From: Desulfotignum sp.
GTDB taxonomy: Bacteria > Desulfobacterota > Desulfobacteria > Desulfobacterales > Desulfobacteraceae
Reading direction: 5' to 3'
DNA: 64,000 nt
NCBI GenBank assembly: GCA_018399285.1
Contig: JAGYOW010000012.1
Span: 17,200 to 81,199, forward strand
Shown one piece after another: positions 23,565 to 33,494 of this stretch. Numbering within the stretch: position 1 is the stretch's first letter; each line of letters begins with the position of its first letter. Made by a program: the position numbers and the translations under genes. The notes beneath the pieces are model-generated. The model was given only the letters and a program-made list of their open reading frames with translations, made no database searches and was not told the DNA's origin.

Positions 23565-25156
23565 TTACAAAGTTGTCTGATGTTCTAAAGACAGTTTGTA
23601 CTGAAAACTGTCGGACAGGGCCTGCCAGGAGGCTTCGATAATATCTTCAGACACCCCGATGGTGGAGAAAATATTATCCGTGTCCCGGGATTCGATGAGC
23701 ACCCGGACCTTGGCGTCCGTGCCGTCGGACCCGTCGATCACCCGGACCTTGAAGTCCACCAGATGCATGTCATTGATCTGGGGATACATGGCGGACAATG
23801 CTTTTCTCAACGCGTTGTCCAAAGCGGACACAGGACCGTCTCCTTCGGCTGAGGTGATTTCCGTGGTTTTGCCCACCCGGATTTTAATCATGGCATGGGA
23901 ATAACAGGGTTTTTCCTTGTCTTTTTCCACCACCACCCGAAAGGATTCCAGGTCAAAATAGCTTTTGTACTGTTCCGTCAGCTTTTCCATGATCAGTTTA
24001 AGGGAGCCTTCCGCCGCGTCAAATTCGAATCCGTCATCTTCCAGATCCTTGATGGAAGCCACAATCTGCCGCTGCTTGACGGCATCATCCCCCAGGTCCA
24101 CACCCAGTTCCTCCGCCTTGTAGATGATATTGCTCTTTCCCGACTGTTCCGATACCAGGACCCGGCGGACATTGCCCACTTTTACCGGGTCCATGTGTTC
24201 ATAAGCTCTGGGATTTTTCATGATGGCGGACACATGGACTCCGCCTTTGTGGGCAAACGCACTTTTTCCCACAAAGGGCCGGGAATTGACCGGCGGCATA
24301 TTGGCGGTTTCCGACACAAACCGGGACAGGTTCAACAGTTTTTTTAAGTTGTCTTCAGACATGCAGTTTTTTTTCATCTTCACGGCCAGAATCGGGATGA
24401 TGGCTGTCAAGTCTGCATTGCCGCACCGTTCCCCATACCCGTTGATGGTGCCCTGAACCAGGGTGGCGCCTACGTGCACGGCATTGACGGCGTTGGCCAC
24501 AGCCATGGCGCAGTCATTATGGGTGTGGATGCCATAGCAGATGCCGGGCCGGTCTTTGAAGTGTTTCATGACCGAACGGATGATTTCCTCGATTTCACAG
24601 GGCAAAGATCCGCCGTTGGTGTCACACAGCACCAGGGTCCGGGTGCCGCCGTCCAGGGCCGCTTCCAGGGTATCCAGCGTATATTGCCGGTTGGCTTTGT
24701 ACCCGTCGAAAAAATGCTCGGCATCATACATCACCTCCGGCCTGATCCAGCAGATACGCCACACTTTCCTGATCATTTTCAAGTTTTCTTCCAGGGAGTT
24801 GTCCATGATTTCATTGACGTGCAGGTCCCAGGATTTGCCGAAAATCGTGATCACGGGCGCACCCGAGTCAATCAGGGCCGCCAGGTTGCCATCTTTGTCA
24901 CATGAGATGCCCGGTCGCCTTGTGGCACCGAATGCCGCCACCTTTGCCTGTTTGAATGTGATTTTGGCCAGTTCAAAGAAATGGGCGGCCCCGGGTTGGA
25001 ACCGGGCCATCCGCCTTCGATGTAGTGAATGCCGGCATCATCCAGCCGTTTGGCAATCTTTACCTTGTCTTCCGGAGAAAAAAAGATATTTTCCCCCTGC
25101 ATGCCGTCTCTTAACGTGGTGTCGTATAATTGACCGATTCCATTGTTATTTCCCAT
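23565..25156 (-). CDS. cimA: (R)-citramalate synthase, interrupted by a one-base frameshift near 25005
   Basis: [56 protein letters not shown] in one frame, [27 protein letters not shown]... in the next; break in a G-run. Confidence 0.85.
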
Positions 25157-25658
25157 CTTCTCCTGGGGCAATGGCCCCGGTACTGGCGATTTCAACGATT
25201 CCCATGGGTTTGACCAAAGACAAAATGCCTCGTGTTTGCCGCTGTCACCGGAAATTTCAATGGTGTAGTGGGCATGGCCCACATCCACCACCCGGCACCG
25301 GAAAATATCCACAATGCGCAGAATCTCCGCCCGCTTTTCCGGGTTGGCATGCACCTTGACCAGGGCCAGCTGCCGTTCCACATATTTTTTCCGTGAGATC
25401 GGTCACCGTGATCACGTTGATGAGCTTGTGCAGCTGTTTTTTGATCTGCTCGATGGTCTGGGCGTCACAGGTGGTGGCCATGGTGATTCTGGAGACCACG
25501 GGATCATCCGTGGTGGCCACGCTCAAAGAGTCGATGTTGAACCCTCTGCCGGAAAACAGACCGGCGATCCGGGACAGCACACCGGGTTCATTGTCCACAA
25601 GAATCGACAATAAATATCTGCTGGTTTCCATTGGTGTTTCCTTTACTGTGTGTATCAT
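25146..25658 (-). CDS. ilvN: Acetolactate synthase small subunit, with two apparent frameshifts
   Basis: [50 protein letters not shown] / [52 protein letters not shown] / [22 protein letters not shown]. Confidence 0.85.
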
Positions 25659-25661
25659 TTT

Positions 25662-27367
25662 TTATACCAGAAGCATATCTGTGATGGCACCACCGGCCGG
25701 CACCATGGGGTAGACGGACTCTTCTTTTTCCACCACAAAATCCATGATCACGGTGCCCGGAGTTTCCAGCCCTTTTTCAGGGTCTCTTCCACACAGGCCG
25801 GGTCTGTGCACCGGAACCCGGTGGCCCCGTATGCGTCGGCCAGTTTGACAAAATCAGGCGCGTTTTCAATGTTGGTGCAGGCATAGGCTTTGTTGTAGAA
25901 CAGTTCCTGCCATTGCCGCACCATGCCTAAAAACCGGTTGTTAAGAATCACGATCTTGACATCCAGGCAGTTTTCCACGGCTGTCAGCTCCTGGATGTTC
26001 ATCTGGATGGACCCGTCCCCGGCCACATCCACCACCAGTTTGTCCGGACAGGCCGCTTTGGCGCCGATGGCAGCCGGCAGGCCGAATCCCATGACCCCTA
26101 ATCCGCCGGAAGTGATGAAATGGTTGGGCCGGTCAAAGTGATAATACTGGGCCGCCCACATCTGGTTCTGTCCCACTTCCGTGGTGATGATGGCCTGGCC
26201 CCGGGTGATTTCCCACAGCTTTTCCACCACAAACTGAGGTTTGATCACATCGGTTTTTTGTCTGTATTTCAAGGGCATGGTCTGCTTCCACTGGTCGATC
26301 TGTGCCAGCCAGACATCCCGGTCCACGGCCAGGTCTTTGGGGGCCTGTTTTTCCATGAGCGTGAGAATATGTTCCAGCGTGGTTTTACAGTCCCCCACAA
26401 TGGGGCACTGCACCTCGATATTCTTGTGAATGGAGGTGGGGTCGATATCGATCTGAATGATATCTGCATGGGGTGCAAACTTGCTGATATTTCCCGTGAC
26501 CCGGTCATCAAACCGGACCCCCACGGCAATGATCAGATCCGAGTGTCCGATGCTCATGTTGGCCCGGAATGTGCCGTGCATGCCCAGCATGCCCAGCCAC
26601 AAAGGATCCGTGCCCGGAAACGCCCCCAGTCCCATCAAAGAGGTGGTCACGGGGATCTGTGCCATTTGGGCCAGCCGGGTGATCTGTTCTGATGCCCGGG
26701 ACAGGATCACCCCGCCGCCGGCAAACACCACAGGCCGTCTGGCCGCCTGGATCATTTCCACCACCTTGTGGATCTGTTTTTTGTTGGGTTTGTAATTGGG
26801 TTTATAGGATCTGAGGTTGGGTTCATCCGGCAGGGTGAACTCGATTTCGGCCTGGAGAATATCCTTGGGCAGATCCACCAGCACGGGGCCGGGACGGCCG
26901 GACCGGGCGATGAAAAACGCCTCCTGGATGGTGGCGGCCAGTTTGTCCGGGTCTTTGACCAGGTAGTTGTGTTTGGTGCAGGGCCGGGTGATGCCCACGA
27001 TGTCCACTTCCTGGAACGCGTCATTGCCGATGAGCCCGGTGGGCACCTGGCCGCAGAACACCACCATGGGAATGGAGTCGGCATGGGCCGATGCCAGGCC
27101 CGTGACTGTGTTGGTGGCCCCGGGTCCCGAGGTCACCAGGGCCACCCCTGTGGTCTGGTGGGCCCGGGAATAGGCGTCGGCCGCGTGAACCGCACCCTGT
27201 TCATGGCGGACCAGGATATGGCGCAGGTCATCATGCCGGACGATTTCATCATGGATATCAATGGTGGCACCGCCGGGATATCCGAATATGGTGTCAACTC
27301 CCTGGGTTTTGATCATTTTCACCAGGATTTGTGCCCCTGTCAGTTTCATTGTGTTCTCCTGTGTCAT
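25662..27367 (-). CDS. ilvB: Acetolactate synthase large subunit; C-terminus frameshifted near 25770
   Basis: MKLTGAQILVKMIKTQGVDTIFGYPGGATIDIHD...; tail MDFVVEKEESVYPMVPAGGAITDMLLV in another frame. Confidence 0.92.
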
Positions 27368-27486: not shown

Positions 27487-29154
27487 TTATTCAATAATGG
27501 CTCCCTGGGCCGCGGATGATACCTGGCGGGCATATCGGGCCATGTAGCCTGTTTTGATTTTGGGTTCCGGTTTGACCCATCGGGCCTGCCGTTCCCGGAT
27601 CTCATCTTCGGGTACCATCAGTTCAATGGTTTTGGCCGGGATATCGATGCGGATGATGTCGTTTTCATTGATCATGGCAATGGTTCCGCCGTCGGCCGCT
27701 TCCGGAGACACATGGCCGATGCAGGCCCCTTTGGTGCCGCCGGAAAACCGGCCGTCCGTGATCAAGGCACAGGCCGCCCCCAGGCCCATGCCGGCAATGG
27801 CTGAGGTCGGGGTGAGCATTTCCCGCATGCCAGGCCCTCCGGCAGGGCCTTCATACCGGATCACCACCACATCTCCGGCATTGATTTTCCCGCCCAGAAT
27901 GGCCTCGGTGGCGGCTTCTTCCGTGTCAAACACCCGGGCCGGGCCCTGGTGCATCATCATCTCGTCCACCACAGCCGACTGCTTGACCACACACCCGTCC
28001 GGGGCCAGGTTTCCGAACAAAACAGCCAGACCGCCCTGGACATGATAGGGATCACTGACAGGCCGGATCACGGCCCGGTCTTTGATTGCCACGGAAGAAA
28101 GGTTTTCTGCCAGATTTTTTCCCGTGGCCGTGAGGCAACCGGTGTCCAGCAGGGAGTGGTCGGCCAGGGTTTTCATGACCGCAGGAATGCCGCCGGCCCG
28201 GTCCAGATCCTGAATATGGTCGGGACCGCCCGGGCTCAACGAGCAGATATGCGGGGTTTTTCCACTGACCTGGTTGATCACGGACAGATCCATCGGGGTG
28301 CCGGCTTCATGGGCGATGGCGGTCAGATGCAGCACCGTGTTGGTGGAACAGCCCAAAGCCATGTCCACAGTCAGCGCGTTCATAAACGCCTGTTTTGTCA
28401 TGATTTTATCCGGGGTGATCCCCTGTTCCAGCAGCGCCATGATCTGGATGCCGGTTTCCTTGGCCAGGCGGATACGCCGGGACATGGGGGCCGGGATGGT
28501 GCCGTTGCCGGGCAAAGCCATACCCAGAGCTTCGGTGAGGCAGTTCATGGAATTGGCCGTGAACATCCCGGCGCAGGACCCGCAGGTGGGGCAGGCGCAG
28601 TCTTCCACGGCAGCCAGGTCCGCCTCGGTCATGCGGCCGCCCCGGACTGCGCCCACGGCCTCGAACACGGACACCAGATCGATTTTTTTTGTCTGGTCTT
28701 TGGGATCCAGTCCGGCCAGCATGGGGCCGCCGCTGATGAAAATGGCCGGAATGTTGAGCCTTGCCGCCGCCATGAGCATGCCGGGGACGATTTTGTCACA
28801 GTTGGGCACCATGACAATGGCATCAAAGGGGTGGGCTGTGGCTGTCACCTCGATGGAGTCGGCGATCAGTTCCCGGGAGGCCAGGGAATAGTGCATGCCC
28901 TTGTGGTTCATGGCAATGCCGTCACACACACCGATGGTGGAAAACTCCATGGGAGTGCCTCCGGCCATGGAGATGCCGGATTTGACGGCCGCCACCAGGG
29001 TGTCCAGGTGCATGTGTCCGGGAATGAGCTCATTGGCGGCATTGGCAATGCCGATCAATGGCTGACGGATTTCTCTGTCCGTGTAGCCCAGGGCCTTCAT
29101 CAGGCTCCGGTGGGGGGCTCTTTCCACCCCTTTGGTTGCAATGTGGCTGCGCAT
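27487..29154 (-). CDS. ilvD: Dihydroxy-acid dehydratase
   Basis: 555 aa; [56 protein letters not shown]. Confidence 0.95.
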
Positions 29155-29172
29155 ATGTTTCTCCTTAAAAGC

Positions 29173-29217
29173 AAAAAAGCCGTTATCTGCCCCCCTCGGG
29201 GCTGATAACGGCTTTTA
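29173..29217 (-). terminator. Attenuator terminator upstream of ilvD
   Basis: Stem agccgttatc (29178-29187)/gataacggct (29204-29213) plus inner GC pairs, followed by a T-run on the minus strand. Confidence 0.88.
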
Positions 29218-29239
29218 ACTTGTCAATTGGTTTATGCCA

Positions 29240-29329
29240 CTAGGAGCCCCGTCGTCTGGAGGTGTCAATAATCACCTCCACGATAATAATGAGGACTACC
29301 AGTAGTATGCTTGTCAATTCGGGTGTCAT
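29240..29329 (-). CDS. ilv leader peptide (29 aa) for attenuation
   Basis: ATG...TAG encodes MTPELTSILLVVLIIIVEVIIDTSRRRGS; 13 of 14 residues from I8 to I21 are Ile/Leu/Val; sits between a promoter and the terminator hairpin. Confidence 0.82.
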   Translation of the reverse strand: MTPELTSILLVVLIIIVEVIIDTSRRRGS

Positions 29330-29358
29330 GTCATATTCACTTTGTTTAAAGTTAATTC

Positions 29359-29385
29359 ATTATATATAAATTTATGACCTGTCAA
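29359..29385 (-). promoter_or_regulatory. Promoter of ilv leader/operon
   Basis: Minus strand TTGACA (29385-29380) and TATAAT (29364-29359); spacer 15 nt, alternative -10 one to two bases further. Confidence 0.65.
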
Positions 29386-30640: not shown

Positions 30641-30669
30641 CTGTTATATCCATCAGCGTAATGATGGAC

Positions 30670-31165
30670 ACAAGGGAGGATGCTCAAGCAGGAATACCAC
30701 TTCATTGGTATAGGCAGGCCATGCGATTCGAATTGCAGCCGGCATGATTATCCGCCTGTAAAGTTTAATACCGGACATTCCGCAGGCCCGTGCAGCCTCG
30801 ATTTCTCCGGGAAAGAGACACCTTTCGATTCCTTTCTCCTCTTCCAAAAATTTCTCCGCATAAGCGCGGTGTTGAGGGTAAGGGTGAGTACTGCACAAAA
30901 ATATGCTTCTTGAAAAGAGGCCAGGCCGATCTGGGAAAAGAAATCCTGAAATTGCCCGGAGCCATAGTAAATTAAAAAAGAGTTGAACCAGAAGTGGCGT
31001 GCCCCCTGAAATAGAAATTGAAACCGTAAACCGCATCCAGACAAAGGGGTTTTTAGGACACCCGCATAATCGATAGAACAATGGCAAGTGCAAAATCCGA
31101 TGGCCACACTGATGGCGGTTATTTCAACAGTAATCGCAATCCCTTTGGCAAACTTGGGCAACCGT
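30670..31165 (-). pseudogene. Polar amino-acid ABC transporter permease remnant
   Basis: RACGMSGIKLYRRIIMPAAIRIAWPAYTNEVVFLL in a decayed minus-strand frame. Confidence 0.6.
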
Positions 31166-31269
31166 CAATTATAACCCTATGTCGAGGAAATCCATATGCT
31201 TGGTCCTATTCTCTTCTTACACCGCGTTTGCACGTTTTCCGCCCATTGCTGAAGACAAGGGATAAAATC

Positions 31270-31881
31270 GCTATCAAAAGATAAATAAGCGATGCCATAA
31301 AACAGCTAAACGGTTTTCTGTAGTCTGGCAGCGACATCCGCGTTTCTCATCACCCTGGAAGCTGATTACGGATATGAGGGCGGTTTTGCCTTGATCAGCA
31401 CCATCCATATTCCCCACAGCTTCGGGATAGCGAATCGCCACATCTGGGGTATCTGGATCCGCCGGAATGAAAGCAACGGACTCATTCCGCAGGCCCTTGC
31501 CGCTTCAAGCTGGCCCCTGATACCGCCACGAACGCTCCCGGAAAACCTCAGTGGCAAACGCACCGTAAAATAAAACCAATGGTCATGCTTCCGGCGAAAA
31601 AGGGGTTGAGGTCAACATATATCACGTCCCAGCATTGCTGCGAAATCCTGATAAGAGTGGGACCACCGTAGTAAACCAGAAGGATCAGCACCAGTTCGGG
31701 TATCCCTCTCTATTACAGTGGTATAGAGACCTGCTGTAAAACCGAGTATCCAAATTTTTGAAAGTTTGAATAACGCGGCAATCAGGCCGAGTGAAAGCGC
31801 AATCACCATCGAGAACAATCTGACCTTTGAGGTCAGCAGACCCTCCAACAGTAAATGGCCGTAACCTTCCAGATCAAACAC
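31270..31881 (-). pseudogene. Second polar amino-acid ABC transporter permease remnant
   Basis: LEAARACGMSPLLSFRRIQIPQMWRFAIPKLWGIWMVLIKA; LLEGLLTSKVRLFSMVIALSLGLIAALFKLS. Confidence 0.6.
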
Positions 31882-32084
31882 TATCCAAGCACTCCTGCCT
31901 CAATAGAATTACACCAGATTGGAAAAAGGAACATTCTTGTAATCTTCCGATTCAGGCTTACCAAAATGTATGGCGCGCCCTCGTCCTCTATGATGCCTTT
32001 ATCAAGGAATATCACGTGGAGGAGACCTCTTGCAAACCCCATTTCGTGGGTGGCCATGCACCATTGTGCGGCCTTCCTTACAAG

Positions 32085-32690
32085 ATCCTTCATTAATTTC
32101 AAAACCTCTCCTACAAGCCCGGGTCAAGGGGCGGATGTGGCTCGTCAAACAAAAAGGACCTGGGGATCCATTGCCAGTGCCTTGGCAATGGCGGCCCGCT
32201 GTTGCTGGCTGCCGGAAAGCTGGGCTGGAAAATAATGATACCGGTCAGCAATACTGACTTTTCCAAAAGCGCCATCCCTCTGTCCTTTGCCTCTTGCTTG
32301 TTTTTTTTCAGAACATGGACAGGAGCTTCAATAATATTTTCAAGCACAGTCATGTGGAGACCACAAGGAAAATGCTGGAAGACCATATAAGTTTGGTCCG
32401 GCATAAGGTCCACCTGTTTGCGGTCTGGTAGGACGAGCTTTCCTTCCGGTTTTTCTTTAACCCGATATGCTCATCTCCCTTACGATGATCTCTCTCCGGA
32501 AGTCGGCACCTCCAGAAGATTAATGCATCGAAGAAAGGTGCTTGCCGGACCCGGAAGACCCGATAAGGAAATTACGTCCCCTTTCCTTAGCTTCAAGGGT
32601 AATTCCTTTGAGTACTTCAAGGCTTCCAAAGCTCTTGTAAATATTTTCTGCCCTGACGGCAATTTTTTGACTCTCCCAATCCGCCCCTGT
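32085..32690 (-). pseudogene. Polar amino-acid ABC transporter ATPase remnant
   Basis: MVFQHFPCGLHMTVLENIIEAPVHVLKKNKQEAKDRGMALLEKS; LFDEPHP; frameshifted. Confidence 0.65.
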
Positions 32691-32699
32691 TTATGTCAA

Positions 32700-33494
32700 A
32701 AAGGCAAAACGATATAAATTATGCTCTTGCCGTATACATCAAAATCAAAATACTGATTGTTGATTTCTTTATATTTGCCGTTTGCCTGATTTCGTCGATA
32801 GCGTCGTTGAAAGTCTTGCAGCGCTTTGTCGCCTTCCCTGACGGCAATGCCGATACCTTTCCAAGATATTCCTCGTCAATGAAAGAGGGACCGAAGAACT
32901 GAAAGCCTTTTCCCGCTTCATATCGAGAAAACCGGTTTGAAGGATGACGAGTCGGCGCAAAACCATGTCAACCCTGCCGGATGCCAAGTCCATGTTAGCT
33001 TCATCCTGAGTTGCATATGCCTTGATATTTACGGAATCACCGAATTTGGTCTCGGCAAGATTGGCACCCACGACACCTCTTGAACCCCCGATGGTTTTAT
33101 TTTCGATTCCATTGATGAACAGATCCAAAATATTATCCTGGCTTGTCACGCACTGGACTGGTGTCTGATAGTATTTTTTGTAAAATCCACTTTCTTGTCT
33201 CGTTCTGCTGTACGGACATCGAAGCAATGATACAGTCATACTTTTGGCGATCAGCCCGGGAATAATACCATCCCAATCCTGGAGTGACAAATTCGTATTC
33301 CACACCGGCCGCTTCACACAGGCCCTGGCGATATCGATATCAAATCCGGCCAGATCCCTGTTTTTGTCAATGTAATTAAACGGAGTGGTAAGCACCTTCC
33401 GTGCCGATGCGTACCTTTTGATATCCCCGGCGTACAGACTCTGCAAAGAAAGTACGAACACAATCAAAACCGTTAACAGAATTGTTTTTTTCAT
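32700..33494 (-). pseudogene. Amino-acid ABC transporter substrate-binding protein, frameshifted C-terminus
   Basis: Signal peptide MKKTILLTVLIVFVLSLQSLYA; LAGFDIDIARA; QDNILDLFINGIENKTIG. Confidence 0.7.

Follow-up and report, generated by a model that had tools for sequence, protein, structure and literature searches.

The ilvD-ilvB-ilvN-cimA operon of the sulfate-reducing bacterium Desulfotignum sp. is very probably controlled by a ribosome-mediated transcription attenuator that lies between ilvD and larB, the gene directly upstream on the same strand, in the 64,000-nucleotide stretch of DNA analyzed here (the window); sequence comparison and RNA folding models predict that termination within the leader depends on amino acid supply. 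An ilv-type attenuator had been proposed at this site in the initial annotation, and the proposal is supported by the joint conservation of the parts of the element, by covariation, by gene context, and by leader codons that track the downstream pathway. The best reading of these comparisons is that the element represents a widespread and hitherto undescribed attenuator family of Desulfobacterota, whose type of mechanism is already known.

The genes behind the attenuator, all on the minus strand, belong to the pathway of isoleucine and valine synthesis. The first gene predicted to be regulated is ilvD (27487-29154; NCBIfam TIGR00110), which encodes dihydroxy-acid dehydratase and has a Shine-Dalgarno sequence, AAGGAG (29161-29166), 6 nt past the terminator. 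It is followed by ilvB (25748-27367; TIGR00118) and ilvN/ilvH (25257-25658; TIGR00119), for the large and small subunits of acetolactate synthase, and by cimA (23565-25010; TIGR00977), for citramalate synthase. The 3' end of ilvB, ilvN, and the 5' end of cimA are frame-shifted in the assembly by several single-base deletions that fall within ~1 kb (24737-25777) when the window is compared with close relatives, two in number, of 96% and 95% identity, both of which have intact frames. This patch is more likely an assembly or sequencing error than the mark of a decayed operon. Elsewhere in the window (30653-33494), the ORFs suggest a broken-up ABC transporter for amino acids, with pieces of its binding protein and permease spread over several frames as if they too were frame-shifted.

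The leader is preceded by a perfect -35 hexamer, TTGACA (29380-29385, minus strand), and a perfect -10 hexamer, TATAAT (29359-29364, minus strand), separated by a 15-nt spacer. This promoter was missed by a simple scan because the scan accepts only spacers of 16-18 nt. The initial annotation had placed a promoter on the minus strand, and TTGAC and TATATAAT are visibly conserved in most family members. The leader peptide ORF (29240-29329, minus strand) consists of 29 codons, MTPELTSILLVVLIIIVEVIIDTSRRRGS, and a TAG stop codon (29242-29240). One run within it carries Ile, Leu, or Val (ILV) at 13 of 14 codons, a density reached in none of 200,000 shuffles, so that the ORF noticed at first inspection is both present and richer in these residues than chance allows. 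ILV-rich leaders likewise occur in the family at every intact main ilvD locus (64 of 64) and at the 65 aligned loci of the order. No strong Shine-Dalgarno sequence was found for the leader ORF; an alternative frame that begins at a TTG after GGAGG was considered and rejected, its start codon varying among relatives. Neither Pfam nor NCBIfam has a family that the peptide matches above cut-off.

Folding of the leader RNA yields a structure of -65 kcal/mol, compared with a shuffled mean of -42 (z -5.9), a stability that none of 200 dinucleotide shuffles reached. Within the ORF, an inner hairpin designated P1 (TGGAGGTG/CACCTCCA; 29257-29280, minus strand; -12.6 kcal/mol) shows compensatory changes in relatives. 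Downstream of it, region 2, the 5' arm of the antiterminator (CGGGGCT-CC-TAGTGGC; 29236-29251, minus strand), contains the leader stop codon and can pair with region 3, the 3' arm (GCCGTTA-TC-AGCCCCG; 29197-29212, minus strand). The initial annotation had recognized the exact complementarity of CGGGGCT (29251-29245) and AGCCCCG (29203-29197). This pairing stands but is incomplete, for a second helix joins TAGTGGC (29242-29236) to GCCGTTA (29212-29206), and the window's antiterminator thus comprises 7+7 bp (14 bp) at about -18.1 kcal/mol when the RNA is folded up to region 3. Region 3 also supplies the 5' arm and apical stem of an intrinsic terminator (AAAAGCCGTTATC...GATAACGGCTTTTTT; 29173-29216, minus strand; -30.6 kcal/mol), which ends in the T-run reported earlier and shows covariation in relatives. 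Through the shared region 3, antiterminator and terminator are mutually exclusive. The GGAGGTG/CACCTCC hairpin described in the initial annotation does lie inside the ORF, as P1, but it has no overlap with region 2 and is therefore not a 1:2 protector of the classical kind.

The conservation of this arrangement was assessed at several depths. In the window's family, represented by 86 genomes, 64 intact main ilvD loci were aligned; the element precedes ilvD in every one of them, and in the family it is missing only at divergent ilvD paralogues. Some genomes possess such a divergent ilvD (57% identical) without a leader (L060-L063, L070), and several of these carry the element at another site. 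An attenuator of the family type stands before ilvB, not ilvD, at L204, L212, L232, L242, and L250. Across the order, the covariance models R1 and R2 recovered the element in 176 of 194 and 264 of 291 genomes, respectively. Second model matches on the opposite strand (e.g., G000:C24:46350-46415:+) are matches to the near-palindromic terminator and were rejected as extra copies. The leader ORF, region 2, region 3, and the terminator are conserved jointly across the order; a conserved terminator beside an unconserved leader, which the initial annotation had raised as an objection, is excluded, since the two are kept together.

The element also extends beyond the order. In a phylum sample, 44 of 396 genomes contained a match, 28 of them outside the order, elsewhere in Desulfobacterota, and of the four outside matches that were inspected, three precede cimA and one precedes ilvB, all with ILV-rich leaders. 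When GTDB genomes were scanned with the nucleotide motif alone, at least 80 loci were found, belonging by title to Deltaproteobacteria/Desulfobacterota or to unplaced proteobacterial bins. The named genera among the matches listed include Desulfotignum, Desulfobacula, Desulfobacter, Desulfospira, Desulfoluna, Desulfosarcina, Desulfosudis, Desulfamplus, and Desulfocicer. All 75 of the listed loci with enough downstream DNA precede ilvD (56), ilvB (16), or leuA (3), and the downstream gene overall is ilvD, ilvB, leuA, or cimA.

Evidence that the proposed helices form comes from covariation. Within the family, little or no variation is seen in the antiterminator pairs GGGC/GCCC and TGGC/GCCG, a pattern that alone neither proves nor disproves pairing. 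Outside the window's family, region 2 (GGGYTGATAATGG) and region 3 (CCGTTATCAGCCC) form a 13-bp helix, with pairings such as GGACTG/CAGTCC (L087, L093) and GTGTTG/CAGCAC (L135). In the order alignment 94.2% of the cells of this 2:3 helix are paired, and its level of covariation was reached by 0-2 of 500 shuffles, a result that rests on few cells (9) among many close relatives, with shuffles that retain relatedness. The P1 and terminator helices together contain 88 cells changed on both sides, compared with a mean of 28 in shuffles. In the terminator, 26 compensatory changes fall on pair 109-145, which lies immediately beyond the antiterminator; most pairs that belong to both structures show little variation, as would follow from mutual constraint among regions 2, 3, and 4. 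In the family, P1 shows compensatory changes while its 5' GGAGG is nearly invariant.

A related observation concerns GGAGGTGAT in the leader ORF (29271-29279 and family relatives), which is nearly invariant, beyond what the hairpin requires in some genera, and which matches the anti-Shine-Dalgarno sequence at the 16S rRNA end over 9 nt. As a general internal Shine-Dalgarno or ribosome-pause site this sequence was rejected, the hairpin sequence being unrelated outside the family (CCTCG/CGAGG and others).

According to the mechanism proposed here, transcription would start ~7 nt past the -10 box, with a ribosome translating the ILV-rich ORF as RNA polymerase synthesizes the leader. Under a shortage of charged Ile-, Val-, or Leu-tRNA, the ribosome would stall at the control codons with its leading edge short of region 2, leaving region 2 to pair with region 3, so that the antiterminator would block the terminator and the operon would be transcribed. 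With ample charged tRNA, the ribosome would proceed to the stop codon and cover region 2, region 3 would be taken up in the terminator, and transcription would be expected to end before ilvD. For the inner hairpin, a role in polymerase pausing or in synchronization is probable. RNA polymerase pause sites follow the consensus G-10 Y-1 G+1. In region 2, one register of this consensus fits 63 of 65 leaders because region 2 is conserved, and it lies too far from P1 for a hairpin-stabilized pause; the register next to P1 fits 31 of 65.

The geometry of this model was explored in the 65 order leaders by setting a ribosome on each leader codon in turn and folding the RNA downstream of it as far as region 3. 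The antiterminator was favored with the ribosome on 98% of the ILV codons, and the family gave the same result. With the ribosome at the stop codon, the antiterminator was favored in 0 of 65 leaders and likewise in the family, an outcome largely set by geometry. The median distance from the last ILV codon to region 2 is 14 nt, which is close to the reach of a ribosome, and the leader stop codon falls within or just after region 2 in 63 of 65 leaders, at an offset of 4, 7, or 15 and in two reading frames. In the simulation without a ribosome, equilibrium folding favored the antiterminator in 46 of the 65 leaders, so that at equilibrium the untranslated state would not be the classical "off" state, and its outcome would depend on folding kinetics.

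These results bear on how closely the element follows the classical scheme. In strictly classical four-region attenuation, termination would occur also when the leader is not translated, with region 2 protected by arms upstream of P1. Such arms can be drawn in the window, where region 1, the control-codon segment CTACTGGTAGTCCTC (29291-29305, minus strand), is able by folding to pair with GGGGCTCCTAGTGG and sequester region 2. This outer 1:2 pairing, at -29.2 kcal/mol, comes near the combination of the inner hairpin and the 2:3 helix (-32.0) and would form first during transcription; in the window, therefore, folding models suggest that the outer pairing, not the inner hairpin, could serve as the protector of region 2. 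However, no conservation of the outer pairing was found outside the window's genus or family, or across the order, and most relatives have a P1 that ends before region 2 and an antiterminator favored by ribosome-free folding. The strictly classical scheme is a tenable reading to which we give somewhat less than even credence. We hold to a similarly tentative degree that a two-state attenuator of branched-chain amino acid (BCAA) genes operates throughout Desulfobacterota, in which the stop codon or codons (TGA TAA) lie in the antiterminator arm, only a terminating ribosome would switch the operon off, an untranslated leader would leave it on, opposite to classical superattenuation, and a separate hairpin within the ORF would serve polymerase pausing.

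That the codons themselves would be read is best supported in Desulfobacter, in which the element is duplicated, with one copy before ilvD and another before leuA. The leuA copies keep the hairpin and the antiterminator arms, while ATT (Ile) codons have become CTT (Leu), and the Leu share of ILV codons rises from 0.14 before ilvD to 0.58 before leuA, being higher at leuA in 11 of 11 genome pairs. This shift is the strongest evidence that the codons would act as the sensor. It also presents a natural codon swap, in which one RNA frame carries either Ile/Val or Leu codons and whose specificity is directly testable.

The same copies weigh against the view that the leader is a functional hydrophobic micropeptide conserved at the protein level, since they alter residues and retain the RNA arms. 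The family consensus, ILLVLIIVEVIIxTSxRRGS, does appear conserved and membrane-like. Yet I, L, and V interchange freely, the C-terminus is variable, and codons in paired stretches of the RNA do not vary at the third position (GTG GAG GTG). In the order as a whole, the nucleotides of region 2 are read in two frames, ending in ...G-stop or ...GLIMA-stop, so that nucleotides rather than peptide are conserved there, and a micropeptide function is very unlikely. Less probable still is an intrinsic terminator alone, acting for example on readthrough from larB, with the short ORF a chance or non-regulatory feature. The strength of the terminator and the position of larB would suit this explanation, but the terminator is conserved together with the ILV-rich ORF, region 2, and promoter in the family and with the ORF and region 2 over the order, the readable motif loci listed all precede BCAA genes, and codon content varies with the downstream gene. 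BCAA genes in other phyla are often under T-boxes or ppGpp riboswitches, but control of ilvD by a T-box or ligand-binding riboswitch, with an incidental ORF, is extremely unlikely here, where the window gave no Rfam match at the gathering score and four loci gave nothing relevant at E<=1, and where no conserved structure is seen beyond P1, the antiterminator, and the terminator, ILV codons being the apparent sensor.

The ribosome-mediated attenuator favored here has parallels in known systems. The E. coli ilvGMEDA and ilvBN attenuators possess an ILV-rich leader, alternative antiterminator and terminator structures, and a terminator before the first biosynthetic gene. The Desulfobacterota element shares these features and the multivalent Ile/Val/Leu control codons. 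It differs in that, outside the window's genus, its inner hairpin is clear of region 2, its stop codon lies inside the antiterminator arm, and it precedes ilvD, ilvB, leuA, or cimA. The enterobacterial logic invoked in the initial annotation thus holds for the mutually exclusive antiterminator and terminator; it does not extend to kinship between the leader peptides, as the curated enterobacterial ilv leader peptide models of Pfam and NCBIfam gave no match up to E=10.

Other comparisons come from more distant phyla. The C. glutamicum ilvBNC attenuator (Corynebacterium ilvB-II motif) likewise combines a BCAA-rich uORF, a terminator, an antiterminator, and an upstream hairpin, the last proposed to function in polymerase pausing, but it is found in another phylum, is different in sequence and genus-restricted, and has a 15-residue leader with fewer control codons (PMC11857589, PMC10272879, PMC11109978). 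Candidate ilvB leader peptides of Actinobacteria resemble the present element as short ORFs with Ile/Val/Leu runs by terminators upstream of ilvB; in those, ORF and terminator overlap, and altering the codons had no effect in S. coelicolor (PMC1262725), whereas the Desulfobacterota element exhibits antiterminator covariation and pathway-matched codons. The Veillonella ilvD motif (WRC-18-2), also an RNA element upstream of ilvD, is a weak riboswitch candidate with little covariation from one Firmicutes genus (PMC8632094). The open-access literature that was searched gave no account of an ilv attenuator in Desulfobacterota.

Attenuator-like arrangements were also observed at other biosynthetic genes. 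At one locus of the same order (L111, 1431-1641), a leader, MKGNFGLINRTVGRYFYFWYYFYNTGLPKVR, with a Phe/Tyr/Trp run and a terminator precedes a DAHP synthase gene (aroFGH) and is a candidate aromatic attenuator. At L115 (1501-1692), a terminator immediately upstream of trpD comes after four consecutive TGG (Trp) codons in one frame, which makes this locus a candidate trp attenuator. These candidates suggest that ribosome-mediated attenuation may be a more general strategy in this group of bacteria. For the element before ilvD, the comparisons would add to the catalog a covariance-supported RNA family that is absent from Rfam and, to many genomes, small ORFs that are unannotated, and they would assign a regulator of BCAA synthesis to the order Desulfobacterales and to parts of the wider Desulfobacterota.
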